Source: Dethiobacter alkaliphilus AHT 1
GTDB lineage: Bacteria > Bacillota > Dethiobacteria > Dethiobacterales > Dethiobacteraceae
NCBI RefSeq assembly: GCF_000174415.1
Contig: NZ_ACJM01000002.1
Coordinates: 1 to 64,000, forward strand
Length of the DNA: 64,000 bases
Reading direction: 5' to 3'
The translations under genes were made by a program, and so were the position numbers. The notes beneath the pieces are model-generated. The model saw only the letters and a program-made list of their open reading frames with translations. It was not told the DNA's origin and searched no databases. Positions 35,294 to 61,135 of the stretch are shown one piece after another. Within the stretch, counting starts at the first letter, position 1, and every line of letters begins with the position of its first letter.

Positions 35294-36481
35294 ATGCGTC
35301 AGATCATTCATGTGGATATGAATGCCTTCTTTGCCTCCTGCCATCAGGCCCAAAATCCCCAGTGGCAGGGAAAGCCTTTGCTGGTGGCGGGTGATCCGCA
35401 AAAAAGGCACGGCATCATTCTTACCGCCTCTTATGAAGCCAGAAAGTTTGGCGTAAAGACCGCCATGGCTGTGTGGCAGGCAAAAAAGCTTTGTCCACAG
35501 GGAATTTATATCTCCCCGGACCACAAACTTTATTCGGCATACTCCAAAAGAATTATGGCCATAATGGAGGATTACACACCACTGGTGGAGCCCTTCTCCA
35601 TAGATGAGGCCTGGCTGGATGTGACCGGCTCGGCCCGGTTGTTTGGCACCACAGAAGAAATTGGTCGCCTGCTGCAGCAGCGTATTTTGGACGAAACCGG
35701 CATTCCCTGTTCCGTGGGCATCTCCGGTAATAAGTTTCTGGCCAAAATGGCTTCGGAGCGCCAAAAACCCCAGGGGTTCACCATCCTGTGGCCCCGGGAT
35801 GTCCCGGAAGTTTTATGGCCTCTGCCGGTGGAAGAAATGGTGGGGGTGGGCCGCAAGATGGCACCGGCACTCCATGAAATGGGTATTGAAACCATCGGCG
35901 AATTGGCGGCCATGCCGCTGCGACTGTTGGTGAGCCGTTTTGGTGTTGCCGGTGAGTCCCTGCATCATTTGGCCAATGGGCGTGATGATTCGCCGGTGGA
36001 TCCCACCGTATTTGATACGGTTAAATCGGTGGGAAATTCACTGACGCTGCCGCGGGACATTAATGACCCGGAAGATGTGGCCCGGGTGCTGCTTAAGCTT
36101 AGCGAAAAAGTGGGAAGAAGGCTGCGGCAGAGCGGCAATGTGGCCAGGACGGTAACGCTTACCGTCAAAGACCAGAATTTTGTTAGCGTCACCCGCTCCA
36201 GGACCCTGCATGAACCCACCGGCTTCACCGACGTTATTTATAAAACCGCTGTGGACATACACCAGAAGCAATTTGAACCCTGGCGCAAAGTACGGCTGCT
36301 GGGAGTGAGCGTTTCCAACCTGCTGCCTGCAGACGGCGGCGTCCAGTTATCCCTCTTTGGAGCCTCTGAAGAAAGAATGGAAAACCTGACCCGTGTTACC
36401 GACCGCATTCGCGACCGCTACGGTGATACGGTTATCGGCAGGGCACGGCTCTGCAAAGAAAAAGAGACACCGCCTAAATAG
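35294..36481 (+). CDS. dinB: DNA polymerase IV (Y family)
   Basis: A 395-residue translesion polymerase. Catalytic motifs are IIHVDMNAFFASC near the start and EPFSIDEAWLDVTG near residue 100. The thumb helix-hairpin-helix and little-finger domain follow, including LTLPRDINDPEDV. No clear beta-clamp motif was picked out at the short Lys-rich C-terminus; LSLFGASEER near residue 355 is a candidate (QLSLF). ATG 35294 follows GGGAGG. SOS control is expected from the LexA box upstream. Confidence 0.95.
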   Translation: MRQIIHVDMNAFFASCHQAQNPQWQGKPLLVAGDPQKRHGIILTASYEARKFGVKTAMAVWQAKKLCPQGIYISPDHKLYSAYSKRIMAIMEDYTPLVEPFSIDEAWLDVTGSARLFGTTEEIGRLLQQRILDETGIPCSVGISGNKFLAKMASERQKPQGFTILWPRDVPEVLWPLPVEEMVGVGRKMAPALHEMGIETIGELAAMPLRLLVSRFGVAGESLHHLANGRDDSPVDPTVFDTVKSVGNSLTLPRDINDPEDVARVLLKLSEKVGRRLRQSGNVARTVTLTVKDQNFVSVTRSRTLHEPTGFTDVIYKTAVDIHQKQFEPWRKVRLLGVSVSNLLPADGGVQLSLFGASEERMENLTRVTDRIRDRYGDTVIGRARLCKEKETPPK

Positions 36482-36887
36482 CGCGGTGTCCCAGTCCAAT
36501 GGCTACCTCATTTAAATGCAGGAGGCCGATGGCAAAGAAGATGGCCACAGCGATGTGGTCTCCTTTGCGTGCAATGCCTACTTTACCACCCACATTTAAC
36601 CCTACGGCTTTTGGCATAATCTGTGACAGTGCTTCCCGGGCTGCGCCGGCCACACCGCCTTCAGCCTGATGGGTGCTCTCAATAACGCCTTCCCGTTTGG
36701 CGGCCACCACCGCCCGCTCCACCACTTTCTGAACTGATGTGATAAATTCCCCGCCGTAATCTGCAGCGGTGGCTTTAATCCCCTCTTGGGCCAGTTGTTC
36801 CTTTAGCTGCCTCTCCGCATCACGGTCTGGCGATAAGGCCAGCCGAATTGCGGCACTGGCTATAAACTTACTTTCCTGCTGATTCAT
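36474..36887 (-). CDS. HutP-family RNA-binding protein
   Basis: A 137-residue homologue of HutP, the histidine-activated antiterminator of Bacillus. It starts MNQQESKFIASAAIRLAL and contains GGEFITSVQKVVERAVVAAKREGVI, a metal-ligand-like THQAEGGVAGAAREAL, PKAVGLNVGGKVGIARKGDHIAVAIFFAIGLLHLNEVAIGLGHRAI. GAGGTGAAACC precedes the ATG. No histidine-utilisation genes are near, so its RNA target here is unknown. Convergent with dinB, overlapping by eight bases. Confidence 0.9.
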   Translation of the reverse strand: MNQQESKFIASAAIRLALSPDRDAERQLKEQLAQEGIKATAADYGGEFITSVQKVVERAVVAAKREGVIESTHQAEGGVAGAAREALSQIMPKAVGLNVGGKVGIARKGDHIAVAIFFAIGLLHLNEVAIGLGHRAI

Positions 36888-36942
36888 GGTTTCACCTCTA
36901 ACCGGACATAGTATCCTTTTCTGCATTAATTATAGCGGAAGA

Positions 36943-36977
36943 CAAAAAATAAAACAAGCAGACATGGTCTGCTTGTG
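36943..36977 (-). terminator. Rho-independent terminator of the selenoprotein gene
   Basis: On the minus strand ACAAGCAGAC pairs with GTCTGCTTGT across a three-base loop, followed by TTTTATTTTTTG. Confidence 0.85.
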
Positions 36978-37012: not shown

Positions 37013-37264
37013 TTAAGAAAAACCATCCAGAGCATTTTCCAGAGTGTCTTTTTTAAATCCTACCACCACAGTGCTGTCTATGGTAACAACGGGTGCCGCC
37101 TTTTGACCTGAGATATGCCACATCTCTTCAAAGGCGTTGCGGTCTTCCACAATATTATATTCCCGAAACGGTAAATCTTTTTGTGAAAGAAACTCTTTCA
37201 CATCTTCACAGGAACCTCAGTATTTACCGGCAGAATAAACAGTAATTGTCGGTTGTTTGGGCAC
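37013..37264 (-). CDS. Selenocysteine-containing glutaredoxin-like protein (in-frame UGA)
   Basis: An 83-residue glutaredoxin-like protein if UGA at 37219-37217 is read as selenocysteine. GTG 37264 follows AAGGAGG at seven bases. The protein reads MPKQPTITVYSAGKY, Sec16, GSC, then EDVKEFLSQKDLPFREYNI and further APVVTIDSTVVVGF. This is the normal Grx layout, with Sec in place of the first Cys of the CxxC active site and Cys19 as resolving residue. Frame and homology continue on both sides of the UGA. A SECIS-like hairpin starts 14 bases after it. Standard ORF calling sees only the 62 residues after the UGA. A cysteine-to-stop mutation (TGC/TGT to TGA) is the main alternative. Confidence 0.85.
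37182..37202 (-). promoter_or_regulatory. Predicted bacterial SECIS hairpin in the glutaredoxin gene
   Basis: On the minus strand TGTGAAAG (37202-37195) and CTTTCACA (37189-37182) form a perfect 8-bp stem with loop AGTTT. The G is the second loop base, as in the bacterial SECIS consensus. The loop begins 23 bases after the UGA, within the usual range. Confidence 0.72.
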
Positions 37265-37336
37265 AGAAAAGCCTCCTTGATATCAAGACTCATTACGTTT
37301 TTCATGGGTTGACCAACCCAACAAATCATAAATCAG

Positions 37337-37565: not shown

Positions 37566-37838
37566 TTATAAATACGTGCTAATCATTGTCACAACGGCAC
37601 TATTGATAAGGGATATTACAATAATGGCTATGATGGGTGAGAAATCAAGGGGCATTGCGCCTTTGGGCATAAGCTTGCGGAAAGGGGCCAAAATAGGCTC
37701 CGTACCTTCATAAATAAACTGTGCTACGGCATTATTGCGGCTATTGGGGATCCAGGACATCAAAATCCTGGCTAAAATCATCCAGCGTAATATGATAAAA
37801 AACCAATCTACAAGCTGAATCAGCTGATACTGCGCCAC
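37566..37838 (-). CDS. YggT-family membrane protein
   Basis: A 90-residue membrane protein with two YggT hydrophobic segments: LIQLVDWFFIILRWMILARIL, and PLDFSPIIAIIVISLINSAVV. The linking region is SWIPNSRNNAVAQFIYEGTEPILAPFRKLMP. YggT proteins are linked to osmotic or cell-division-related membrane functions (YlmG in Gram-positives). GTG start after GGAG. Usually found in the ylm cluster, so the position near selenium genes is unusual. Confidence 0.88.
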   Translation of the reverse strand: MAQYQLIQLVDWFFIILRWMILARILMSWIPNSRNNAVAQFIYEGTEPILAPFRKLMPKGAMPLDFSPIIAIIVISLINSAVVTMISTYL

Positions 37839-37903: not shown

Positions 37904-38185
37904 TTAGCTATCATTGTCCCAGGGGCCTGCCAGCCTTTCAGCATGAACCTTTTTACCTTCGTATGATAAAAGGTAAATGCTTTCCACATCGTCCCCATCT
38001 TCAGTTAAAAGTGCCTGAACTGAAGGGAGCGCCTGTTCACTAAAACGCGCCGCAATGCCGCAGGAAGAAGAAATGACACGGGGAACCGGAATCATTGCCA
38101 CATCCAGGTTATGGTTTTTCAGTAATTTTTCAAATCTTAAAGCGTGTGAAACGGAGTGGAAAGTGCCGACATAAAAACGTTCCAA
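37904..38185 (-). CDS. DUF3343 protein
   Basis: A 93-residue protein with the DUF3343 layout: YVGTFHSVSHALRFEKLLKNHNLDVAMIPVPRVISSSCGIAARF. Such proteins are putative Se/S-handling or regulatory partners that often sit beside YedF-type TusA proteins; the function is not known. The start is TTG after GAGGTG. It lies two bases from the TusA/YedF gene, so both are co-translated with yedE. Confidence 0.85.
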   Translation of the reverse strand: MERFYVGTFHSVSHALRFEKLLKNHNLDVAMIPVPRVISSSCGIAARFSEQALPSVQALLTEDGDDVESIYLLSYEGKKVHAERLAGPWDNDS

Positions 38186-38187
38186 AA

Positions 38188-38415
38188 TTACACCTCTTTA
38201 TCGATGGTTATAACAAACTCTGAGTTATCTTCCCGGGTTTGACAGCTAAAACCCATCCCTGTGACCAGGCGACGAATATTTTCTGCCGCCACAAAGCTGT
38301 CTGCCACAACGGTGAGGGGAAGAGCGGGTTGCCCTGTACCCAAAGCATTTTTTGTACGAATCACCGGTTCAGGGCAGGATAATCCCCGGACATCCAAGTT
38401 AACGTTAGCGGTCAA
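38188..38415 (-). CDS. yedF: TusA/YedF-like sulfurtransferase protein
   Basis: A 75-residue TusA-fold protein with VNLDVRGLSCPEPVIRTKNAL carrying the conserved CPxP cysteine, followed by VVADSFVAAENIRRLVTGMGFSC. In selenium clusters this family (YedF) is paired with the YedE transporter. Only the N-terminal TusA domain is present; many YedF proteins also have a C-terminal DsrE-like domain. TTG 38415 follows AAGGAGGAG and overlaps the yedE stop by 11 bases. Confidence 0.88.
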   Translation of the reverse strand: MTANVNLDVRGLSCPEPVIRTKNALGTGQPALPLTVVADSFVAAENIRRLVTGMGFSCQTREDNSEFVITIDKEV

Positions 38416-39496
38416 GAGTAACTCCTCCTTTCCGCACAAAGCTTATCTGGGGAACTGTAAAGGCAAATCCTACTACTAAAAGGAATACTGCTGACAGCAA
38501 AACTCCGGCCTGACCGGCCTGGCTGACACCGGCGGGGCTGGCCGCCAAGCCAAAATTATGAGCTACCGCTGCGCCAAAGAGCAGCCCCAAAAAAGTCATG
38601 CCGGCGTCGGTGTCTCCCTCACCGGCCAGAATTGTCTGCCGGATGGGGCAGCCTCCCAGCAAAGTAGCACCAAGGCCAACCACTGCCAGGCCGATGAAGT
38701 TCCACAGCCCTGCCGTATGTGCCACCGGCTGGTCGACAAAACCGGGATTGAAATAGCCCAAAACCAGATTACCCACCAGGGCGGCGGCAAAGATGGCCAA
38801 GGAACCGTACAGCAGGTGAGAGTCACCAATAAGCATCATATCCCTGAAGCAGCCAATCTGACACAACCGGCTGCGCTGCACCAATACTCCAATCAAGACT
38901 CCGGCCCCTAAAGAGATCAGAAATGGAGCTCTGGCAAAGCCCGGGCCGCTTGCACTGAAAAAAATAAAGGCCGGCGCCACAATAACTAAGATTAATAATA
39001 CCAAAGCAAGGCCCGGTATGGCAATACCATTACCGTTATGTATGCGCTGACTACGTCCCAGGGAAAAGCCCCGTTTCAGAAACTGTACTCCCACAAAAAT
39101 TCCAAAGATAAAGCCCAGTAAACCAATAACTGCATTAAAATCCCCAGCCGCCAACCGTAAAACCATCCGCAACGGGCAGCCCAGAAATACCAGGGCACCA
39201 ATCATCACCGCCATACCAATTAAAAAACGCAGCAAGGGAGAAGACCCTCCACGGGCACGAAATTCACCGCTGAACATGCTGATGATAAAAGCACCAATGA
39301 TAAAGCCTGAAACCTCCGGTCGCAGATATTGTACCACTTCTGCCCGATGAAAACCCAACCCCCCTGAGATGTCACGCACAAAACAAGCTACGCAGACCCC
39401 CATGTTGGCTGGGTTACCAAAGCGGACCAGCAGAACACCTAGTAAGCCTACCAGTATTCCACTGATAATAATTTTGCTTTTTTCCAATATACCCAC
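38405..39496 (-). CDS. yedE: Selenium-metabolism membrane protein YedE/FdhT-like
   Basis: A 363-residue polytopic protein with two homologous halves. Each has a GCPxR motif (FLGCPLRMVLRLAAGDFNA, and LLGGCPIRQTILAGEGDTDAG) and a Cys-containing entry motif (MGVCVACFVRD, and RLCQIGCFRDMML). The YeeE/YedE fold transports thiosulfate-like anions; the YedE subgroup co-occurs with selenium use and is proposed to move selenium compounds. Start GTG 39496 or TTG 39487 after GGGGG. Cotranscribed with yedF. Confidence 0.88.
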   Translation of the reverse strand: MGILEKSKIIISGILVGLLGVLLVRFGNPANMGVCVACFVRDISGGLGFHRAEVVQYLRPEVSGFIIGAFIISMFSGEFRARGGSSPLLRFLIGMAVMIGALVFLGCPLRMVLRLAAGDFNAVIGLLGFIFGIFVGVQFLKRGFSLGRSQRIHNGNGIAIPGLALVLLILVIVAPAFIFFSASGPGFARAPFLISLGAGVLIGVLVQRSRLCQIGCFRDMMLIGDSHLLYGSLAIFAAALVGNLVLGYFNPGFVDQPVAHTAGLWNFIGLAVVGLGATLLGGCPIRQTILAGEGDTDAGMTFLGLLFGAAVAHNFGLAASPAGVSQAGQAGVLLSAVFLLVVGFAFTVPQISFVRKGGVTLDR

Positions 39497-39679: not shown

Positions 39680-40585
39680 ATGGAATTTTATCAATTAGAA
39701 GCTTTTGTCAGTGTGGCAGCGGAGCGCTCTTTCTCCCGCGCCGCAGAGCAGCTTTATTTAAGCCAACCCACCGTTAGCGCCCATATAAAAAGCCTGGAGA
39801 AGGAACTGGGCACCTCACTTTTTGACCGGGGAAAAACAGAATTAAAACTTACCGGGGCCGGCAGTGTTCTTTACCGCTTTGCCAGAGAAATGCTGGCGCT
39901 GCGCCTTAGTGCTGTGGACAGTATCCGGGACAGCAGTGAAATAGGGGAGGAAGCCCTTACTGTTGCAGCCAGTTCAGTGCCCTGTCAGTATCTCCTGCCG
40001 CGGGCCATTGCGGCGTTTAAGGAGTTGCATAATCGGGTTAATATCAAACTTACCCAGAAAAATTCCAAAGAGACCTGCGAGGATGTCTTCAATTACCACG
40101 TGCCTGTGGGGGTGGTGGGAGAGAAGATAAAAAGGCCCCACCTGGAGTTTGCACCGCTTCTGGAAGATGAACTTGTGGTTGCTGTTCCCCACAAACAGCA
40201 TTATTCAGAGCTGTTAGCCAAGGAGTCTGTAAGCTTAAACGATTTATCCGGGCACAAAATGCTCTTAAGGGAACCGGGCTCCGGAACCCGTTCCCATTTT
40301 GAAAGTGAATTGGTCAAGGCCAATGCATCAACGGAGATGTTTCAGGTCACAATCTTTGATAACCAGGAAACTATCAAACAGGCTGTTCGGCAGGGCCTGG
40401 GGCTTACCGTTATCTCCCGGTATGTGGTGTCAGATTACCTGCAGTTTGGCATTCTGGCCACCCGCTCAATAACAGATCTTAATCTAAAACGCAGCTTTTA
40501 CCTTGTCTCACACAGCAAACGGATATTATCTCCCGCATCAAAGGCACTCTTAGACCACTTAAAGACTTTTCCCTGGGAGGATTAA
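39680..40585 (+). CDS. LysR-family transcriptional regulator, selenium-associated type
   Basis: A 301-residue regulator. The helix-turn-helix lies at residues 4-62 (FYQLEAFVSVAAERSFSRAAEQLYLSQPTVSAHIKSLE), followed by a periplasmic-binding-protein-like effector domain (about 88-295) containing VGVVGEKIKRPHLEF, LREPGSGTRSHFE and VRQGLGLTVISRYV. This matches the LysR subfamily often found beside selenium genes. Divergent from yedE, and followed three bases later by the cysteine-desulfurase-like gene, so it may control both directions. Confidence 0.9.
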   Translation: MEFYQLEAFVSVAAERSFSRAAEQLYLSQPTVSAHIKSLEKELGTSLFDRGKTELKLTGAGSVLYRFAREMLALRLSAVDSIRDSSEIGEEALTVAASSVPCQYLLPRAIAAFKELHNRVNIKLTQKNSKETCEDVFNYHVPVGVVGEKIKRPHLEFAPLLEDELVVAVPHKQHYSELLAKESVSLNDLSGHKMLLREPGSGTRSHFESELVKANASTEMFQVTIFDNQETIKQAVRQGLGLTVISRYVVSDYLQFGILATRSITDLNLKRSFYLVSHSKRILSPASKALLDHLKTFPWED

Positions 40586-40587
40586 TT

Positions 40588-41745
40588 ATGCAGGAAATAT
40601 ACGCCGACCACGGGGCCACCACTTACCCCCGGCCGCCTCAGGTCATTGATGAGATGACACACTACATGCGCGATATTGGCTGCAGCCCCGGACGGGGCGG
40701 CTACGCAAAGGCACTGGATGCAGCCCGCATGGTTTATGAAACCAGACATTTGCTGGCCCGTTTTTTTAATGTTCCCACCCCCGAGCAGGTAATCTTTACT
40801 CCCAATATTACCTACTCCCTGAATATGGCCATTAAGGGGCTGCTAAAAGAAGGAGACCATGTGCTGATCTCGTCCATGGAGCACAACGCCGTGGTGCGGC
40901 CGCTAACCAGTCTGGCCGGCGAGAAAAACATCTCCGTGGAGCAATTGCCCTGCGCAGCCGACGGTTCGCTGGATCCCCGGCAGGTAAAAAAGGCGCTTCG
41001 GCCCCAAACCCGGCTGGTTATTCTGACCCATGCCTCCAATGTGGCGGGCACAATTTTGCCGGTCTATGAAATCGGAGAAATTCTCCAACAAACAAACACT
41101 TTTTTCTGTGTGGATGCAGCCCAAACCGCCGGATCCGAAGTTGTGGATTTTAAAGCACTGCACTGTGATTACCTGGCTTTCACCGGCCACAAAGGCCTCT
41201 TGGGACCCCCGGGCATCGGAGGGCTGTGTCTGAGCGAGCGTGCTGTTTCTGTTACTGCACCGCTGGTGGAAGGAGGCACCGGCAGCCGCTCCGAAGAGGA
41301 AACTCAGCCGGATTTTCTGCCGGACAAGTTTGAAAGCGGCACACAAAATGTTCCCGGCATTGCCGGACTGGCAGCGGGAATCCGCCTGATAAACGAAGTC
41401 GGCCGGGAGAATATTGGCAAGGATAAACACCGGTTTACCGCTCAGTTTCTTGCCGGTTTGGCCGAAATACCTGAAATTACGGTTTATGGCATCAATGACC
41501 CCGATAAAATGGTTGCCACCATATCCATTAATATTGACGGTATCGACAACGGCGACCTCAGCTTTATGCTGGAGCAGGGATACGGGATAATGACGCGCTC
41601 CGGATTGCACTGTGCGCCCCTGGCCCACAAAACATTAGGCACTTTTCCCCAGGGCACACTGCGCTTCTCATTTGGCTACAAAAACACCCCGGAGCAGATA
41701 AATAGCATCCTGCAGGCTTTGCAAGAAATAGTTAAGGAGAGGTAA
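40588..41745 (+). CDS. Cysteine desulfurase-like class V aminotransferase (SufS-related)
   Basis: A 385-residue PLP enzyme. The PLP lysine lies in FTGHKGLLGPPG, with upstream GDHVLISSMEHNAVVRPL and FCVDAAQTAGS. The putative catalytic cysteine is in RSGLHCAPLAHKTLG. This is the 'cysteine desulfurase family protein' subgroup that commonly accompanies YedE/YedF and LysR in selenium clusters; release of S or Se from Cys/Sec is inferred. ATG follows GGGAGG. It forms an operon with LysR upstream and ybaK downstream. Confidence 0.9.
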   Translation: MQEIYADHGATTYPRPPQVIDEMTHYMRDIGCSPGRGGYAKALDAARMVYETRHLLARFFNVPTPEQVIFTPNITYSLNMAIKGLLKEGDHVLISSMEHNAVVRPLTSLAGEKNISVEQLPCAADGSLDPRQVKKALRPQTRLVILTHASNVAGTILPVYEIGEILQQTNTFFCVDAAQTAGSEVVDFKALHCDYLAFTGHKGLLGPPGIGGLCLSERAVSVTAPLVEGGTGSRSEEETQPDFLPDKFESGTQNVPGIAGLAAGIRLINEVGRENIGKDKHRFTAQFLAGLAEIPEITVYGINDPDKMVATISINIDGIDNGDLSFMLEQGYGIMTRSGLHCAPLAHKTLGTFPQGTLRFSFGYKNTPEQINSILQALQEIVKER

Positions 41746-60892: not shown

Positions 60893-61135
60893 AAAAAAAA
60901 CCTTCGCCGTTTAGAGGCGAAAGGTTTCCGCGGTACCACTCTACTAAGCACGCAGTAATGCTGCGCACCCACTCAAGCCCTTAACGCGGGATGACGGCCA
61001 GATCTACTAGTTTCCGTTCGGCTGGCACTCAGGGGGGAGTTTCTGTCCGGTCTTCGGTCCGCCTCGCACCATCCGGCGGCTCTCTGCTCTCCAGAGCCCG
61101 ACATACTTGCCCCGTCATTGCTTTGTGTCTTTGAT
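60893..61135 (-). promoter_or_regulatory. Leu-specific T-box leader of leuA
   Basis: On the minus strand the T-box motif AGTGGTACCGCGG occurs at 60941-60929 and the terminator AACCTTTCGCC / GGCGAAGGTT follows at 60926-60893. The Stem I landmark GGTGCGAG is visible. The specifier is a likely CUC at 61039-61037, fitting leucine. Uncharged tRNA-Leu would permit readthrough into leuA. Confidence 0.9.

Follow-up and report, generated by a model that had tools for sequence, protein, structure and literature searches.

Glutaredoxins (Grx) that carry selenocysteine (Sec) in a UxxC motif form a well-described family. They were found in the Sargasso Sea set (PMC1088965) and in Geobacter, Alkaliphilus and Moorella (PMC1794560), and a 2026 review lists 'Glutaredoxin (Grx), PF00462, UxxC' as experimentally verified (Table 1 in PMC13188914). 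In Clostridium (Alkaliphilus) oremlandii, Grx1 is a native selenoprotein whose catalytic residue, in a U(or C)PXC motif, is Sec; the protein has been studied with Cys replacing Sec and has been proposed as the reductant of Sec-MsrA (PMC7642778).

Here we describe a locus of Dethiobacter alkaliphilus AHT 1, located on the minus strand of a 64,000-nucleotide stretch of genomic DNA (the window), which almost certainly encodes a functional selenoprotein of the UxxC glutaredoxin family (37264-37013). The product shares with this family the Pfam assignment, the UxxC motif, the position of Sec and a SECIS-like hairpin directly after the UGA, and represents a divergent subfamily without any difference of principle. 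Its identity to C. oremlandii Grx1 (structures 7c10, 7c12 and 7c13) is about 40%, and both hosts have a Sec-MsrA. The active site reads U-G-S-C here versus U/C-P-H-C in Grx1; in the window protein, Sec is preceded by one additional residue and is not followed by Pro.

Two other groups of small redoxins were considered and rejected as identities. UXX-star proteins (NF041114, NF041211 and NF041212) are also glutaredoxin-like and contain Sec, but in a C-terminal UXX-stop motif. Unlike these selenoproteins, the window protein has its Sec at the N-terminal CxxC and ends in ...ALDGFS-stop, with no C-terminal UXX-stop motif, and it scores 38.8 bits with NF041212, whose cut-off is 66. NrdH-redoxins and YruB glutaredoxins are likewise small single-domain glutaredoxins, and scores of 42.4 of the required 85.75 bits (TIGR02194) and 69.6 of 88.55 bits (TIGR02196) were obtained. 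No NCBIfam model reached its cut-off for the window protein, the best being YruB glutaredoxin, which scored highest, NrdH and UXX-star.

Reading frame and protein fold

Read base by base on the minus strand, the frame from GTG 37264 to TAA 37015-37013 contains one in-frame UGA, at 37219-37217 (Table 1). The first-pass annotation, made from the letters of the window, had claimed a frame open save for this codon, an AAGGAGG ahead of the GTG, and glutaredoxin sequence on both sides of a UGA that falls at the first Cys of CxxC. The frame proved correct to the base, the Shine-Dalgarno sequence stands at 37278-37272, and the PF00462 match spans the UGA. The translation is VPKQPTITVYSAGKY-U-GSCEDVKEFLSQ...DGFS, in which U-G-S-C occupies residues 16-19 and aligns with the CxxC of Cys homologues. 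Whether Cys or Sec is placed at the UGA, the 83-residue product matches the full 60-position PF00462 profile from residue 7 to residue 67 (49.4 bits, E 5e-13).

An AlphaFold2 model built from a 7-row alignment has a mean pLDDT of 89.7, and its top match in a fold comparison with the PDB is C. oremlandii Grx1 (7c10, TM 0.79/0.90), which is also the closest in sequence among solved structures (E 1.4e-10). A tblastn search of plasmids gave only four redoxin matches, all below 41% identity.

Table 1. The Sec-glutaredoxin gene, its signals and its neighbours, in window coordinates.
Feature	Position	Strand	Description
Sec-glutaredoxin gene	37013..37264	minus	GTG start, 83 residues, predicted Sec at position 16 (Y-U-G-S-C), TAA stop
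Shine-Dalgarno AAGGAGG	37272..37278	minus	7 nt ahead of GTG 37264; direct reading
UGA predicted to be read as Sec	37217..37219	minus	first (catalytic) Cys of glutaredoxin CxxC; aligned U/C column in relatives
Predicted bacterial SECIS hairpin	37182..37202	minus	8 perfect pairs, TGTGAAAG (37202-37195) with CTTTCACA (37189-37182); loop AGTTT (37194-37190), first base at nt 23 after the UGA, second base G
Intrinsic terminator-like hairpin	36954..36976	minus	10 pairs, then TTTATTTTTT; about 36 nt downstream of the Grx stop codon; consensus match only
YgaP-like transmembrane protein, 59 aa	37337..37516	minus	PF11127 E 3e-9; upstream neighbour
YggT-family membrane protein	37566..37838	minus	PF02325; upstream neighbour
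Putative Se/S carrier protein	37904..38185	minus	PF11823 E 7.5e-21
Short TusA/YedF-like protein	38188..38439	minus	PF01206; TIGR03527 N-terminal part, below its cut-off
YedE-family putative selenium transporter	38405..39496	minus	TIGR04112 484 bits, cut-off 200
Selenium-metabolism-associated LysR regulator	39680..40585	plus, divergent	NF040786 297 bits, cut-off 250
Cysteine desulfurase / selenocysteine-lyase-like PLP enzyme	40588..41745	plus, divergent	TIGR01977 463 bits, over cut-off; SclA NF040779 439 bits, below 525

The hairpin downstream of the UGA

All that the first-pass annotation had stated about the sequence of an 8-bp hairpin, with an AGTTT loop starting 23 nt after the UGA, holds, with the small correction that the energy-best fold adds one A-U pair to the stem, for 9 bp around a 3-nt loop, GUU. 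The hairpin lies just downstream of the UGA and has a G in its apical loop, as bacterial SECIS elements do. Since the stem overlies the conserved residues VKEFLS, conservation alone tells little, and the hairpin was therefore tested with the protein held fixed: an equally strong hairpin arose in the SECIS window in 12 of 5000 synonymous recodings. Against dinucleotide shuffles, a plain 50-nt fold is only mildly unusual (z -1.4); the 21-nt hairpin alone gives z -3.6.

Each of the 23 Sec forms in the comparison has a SECIS-like hairpin, and most of the 19 Cys forms lack one. The median hairpin energies are -6.4 kcal/mol for the Sec forms versus 0.0 for the Cys forms (Mann-Whitney p 6e-7), a contrast that ignores relatedness, includes many Cys forms from distant phyla and holds only two independent pairs on well-supported branches. 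Where the residues differ, the stem is rebuilt with compensating changes (GCCAAGG/CCUUGGC, GCGAAGG/CCUUCGC and GCAAAGA/UCUUUGC). Counted in a fixed register, stem covariation exceeds that of 500 out of 500 column shuffles, with just 3 pairs changed on both sides, and only 78% of cells pair; a count of this kind gives too low a figure for the helix, as stems are shifted by one or two bases relative to one another. Such shifts between subgroups are probably why RNAalifold alone returned no consensus pair in an 11-sequence set.

As RNAalifold had given no pairs, a 5-pair structure was set by hand for a covariance model, a check that the first-pass annotation had proposed. The model was built from 11 Sec sequences, with the window and the orthologues at 71% and 68% identity excluded, and it ranks this site first both in the window (44.5 bits, against 11.7 for the runner-up) and in the genome (at most 29.4 elsewhere). 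It also reflects shared coding sequence, and its score thus counts in favour of an RNA structure but is no proof of one.

Two Cys glutaredoxins, L020 and L025 (genomes G031 and G022), retain all or most of a SECIS-like stem, and the hairpin is not perfectly diagnostic of Sec. On the tree they stand nearest to the Sec form L026, and they have the appearance of proteins that recently changed from Sec to Cys, leaving the hairpin behind.

Relatives, selection and decoding of the UGA

Conservation was surveyed in 40 related genomes and by a scan of GTDB with one genome per species. The closest relatives, at 71% (G002), 68% (G011) and 38-40% identity (G020 and G023), without exception share the UGA at this codon, with active sites UGPC, UMSC, UGLC and URLC; together with the UGSC of the window, the subfamily has Sec in five of the five members found. 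More distant relatives alternate Sec and Cys at this codon, and the U/C label changes at least 5 times on the best tree of 29 proteins. The GTDB scan recovered the same loci and added Sec forms with UTDC from Mesobacillus and its relatives, as well as Cys forms from CPR bacteria and archaea. Within the D. alkaliphilus genome, a Cys paralogue (L037, contig C11:18212-18415, minus strand; HSCTYC) has lost the hairpin, and its orthologue in G002 (L038) has a UGA and keeps a short hairpin; by their sequences, the two represent a Sec/Cys switch between close relatives. The orthologue alignment suggested in the first-pass annotation thus places the alternation exactly at the UGA codon.

That annotation had also named two observations that would count against a selenoprotein, namely a lack of residue conservation upstream of the UGA and loss of the frame in close relatives. 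The orthologues at 71% and 68% identity retain the frame, the UGA and the hairpin, and the upstream codons are under purifying selection. Between the window and its relative L018, dN is 0.071 versus a dS of 0.94 upstream of the UGA, and 0.222 versus 2.66 downstream, all from small numbers and with dS near saturation. The low upstream dN relative to dS indicates that this stretch is selected as protein, which argues against a pseudogene and against an internal start.

These data bear on the reading in which the UGA is a true stop, either because a Cys glutaredoxin recently became a nonsense pseudogene or because an internal start yields only the portion downstream of the UGA. A single base change turns UGU or UGC (Cys) into UGA, standard gene calling would end at this codon, and no listed open reading frame of at least 70 aa crosses it. 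The same UGA is nevertheless present in orthologues at 71%, 68% and about 40% identity, amid many synonymous changes; an internal start does not predict purifying selection on the codons before the UGA; and the upstream GTG has a strong ribosome-binding site, with a Sec-associated hairpin following the UGA. We therefore give a true stop only a very small chance.

A complete set of Sec genes was found when the genome (3.112 Mb in 34 contigs) was searched for selA, selB, selC and selD; the absence of selA/selB/selC would, according to the first-pass annotation, have refuted its proposal. A tRNA-Sec with UCA anticodon (selC) is present, and selA (586 bits), selB (389 bits) and selD (385 bits) are adjacent on contig C1, selD having an in-frame UGA of its own (GGUAAK). 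A second 'tRNA-Sec' match, at C3:124334-124427 on the plus strand (L002; 58.5 bits with the tRNA-Sec model), was rejected, as it proved to be a tRNA-Cys(GCA) with a long variable arm. It probably belongs to the selC*-type class of tRNA-Cys, which has been described in Firmicutes (PMC7609411).

Could such a tRNA decode the UGA as cysteine? The score of the long-armed tRNA-Cys with the tRNA-Sec model would be in keeping with this, as would the UCA anticodon of some selC*-type members elsewhere (PMC7609411), but the GCA anticodon of L002 is unable to read UGA, and the genome has a normal tRNA-Sec(UCA) together with selA, selB and selD. The chance of cysteine decoding is, in our judgement, negligible. 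Insertion of Sec at 37219-37217 is what the sequence points to, and the original proposal of a functional Sec-glutaredoxin is supported by the machinery, the Sec/Cys alternation, the kept frame and the Sec-linked hairpin.

Redox partners, neighbourhood and significance

In the proposed mechanism, translation would start at GTG 37264 and pause at the UGA, where SelB bound to the hairpin 37202-37182 would deliver Sec-tRNA(Sec), and would then run on to TAA 37013 to give the 83-residue glutaredoxin. By analogy with the family, Sec16 would be the catalytic N-terminal residue of the active site that attacks a disulfide, and Cys19 would resolve the mixed selenenylsulfide, as in a dithiol-type redoxin. 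The product would be a general thiol/selenol-disulfide reductase.

Both Glu-Cys ligase families, PF04262 and PF04107, are absent from the genome, as judged from searches with positive controls, and a thioredoxin reductase is present, which together make glutathione an unlikely reductant. Assignment as a glutathione-dependent glutaredoxin, which supposes a glutathione-making host, is disfavoured by the same absence. Since these known glutathione-synthesis ligases are missing, recharging probably follows a thioredoxin-reductase-type route rather than glutathione, although the host might still obtain glutathione by uptake or a different route. The genome also encodes an MsrA with an in-frame UGA at the catalytic position (L110, C15:14596-15000, plus strand; ALG-U-FWG), the arrangement known from the C. 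oremlandii Sec-MsrA. Given this gene and the role proposed for C. oremlandii Grx1, the Sec-MsrA predicted here is a plausible client of the Sec-glutaredoxin, but the glutaredoxin-like proteins L037 or L042 could serve as MsrA reductant instead. A more far-reaching idea is that the UGSC/UGPC/UMSC/UGLC/URLC subfamily is an obligately Sec redoxin, possibly glutathione-independent, with a client of its own (such as selenium-delivery proteins or Sec-MsrA) and distinct from the classic Sec-Grx; we regard this as unlikely.

The first-pass annotation had pointed to selenium-metabolism genes as neighbours. Profile matches bear out their identity (Table 1), but as evidence the neighbourhood is weak, being common to close syntenic relatives only. 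The selenium cassette recurs near the orthologues in G002 and G011 within a wide synteny that also covers unrelated genes (hutP, a Y-family polymerase and sodium-pump decarboxylase genes), and the homologues in G020 and G023 sit among unrelated genes without the cassette. Linkage to the cassette was thus rejected as proof of function, as distant members lie elsewhere. The same data weigh on the view that the Sec-glutaredoxin is dedicated to selenium supply with the YedE, YedF, Se-carrier and lyase cassette and is not a general thiol reductase. In the window the gene adjoins the cassette, as it apparently does in its two closest relatives; the shared region, however, is general synteny, the same protein occurs among unrelated genes in G020 and G023, and scans for promoters and terminators gave no proof of co-transcription. 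We consider a dedicated supply role distinctly improbable and retain that of a general reductase; the neighbourhood is consistent with a selenium-using organism and gives no function for the protein.

Directly downstream of the terminator-like hairpin of the glutaredoxin gene lies a gene for a HutP-family protein (36474-36926, minus strand; PF09021, E 9e-50). An Rfam scan of the window at gathering scores found two T-box leaders (RF00230), at 560-827 on the plus strand (120 bits) and 60910-61127 on the minus strand (107 bits), and nothing else.

Further Sec candidates were seen in the same genome. One (C15:9205, plus strand; locus L105 from about 1501) is a second cryptic candidate, scoring 29.4 bits with the held-out hairpin model; it is Spx/ArsC-like, reads MLEFYCFPA-U-RTCQKAKAWLSEKDVEF..., the UGA standing where CxxC has its first Cys, and has an inverted repeat CGAAAGC/GCTTTCG downstream. 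Another (L042, C26:18004, plus strand) is a UXX-star glutaredoxin-like protein that ends in ...GFQGGGUAV-stop (NF041212 85.3 bits, cut-off 66).

The type of biology described here is already known, UxxC Sec-glutaredoxins having been catalogued since 2005, but the locus is one that annotation easily misses. The analysis adds one well-supported selenoprotein to the proteome of D. alkaliphilus AHT1, alongside these candidates, and a mildly unusual active-site subfamily that leaves the general picture unchanged. Within a single bacterial class, Sec and Cys have been swapped repeatedly, and several Cys forms have a weakened hairpin or none at all, which makes the family a small case for SECIS decay.
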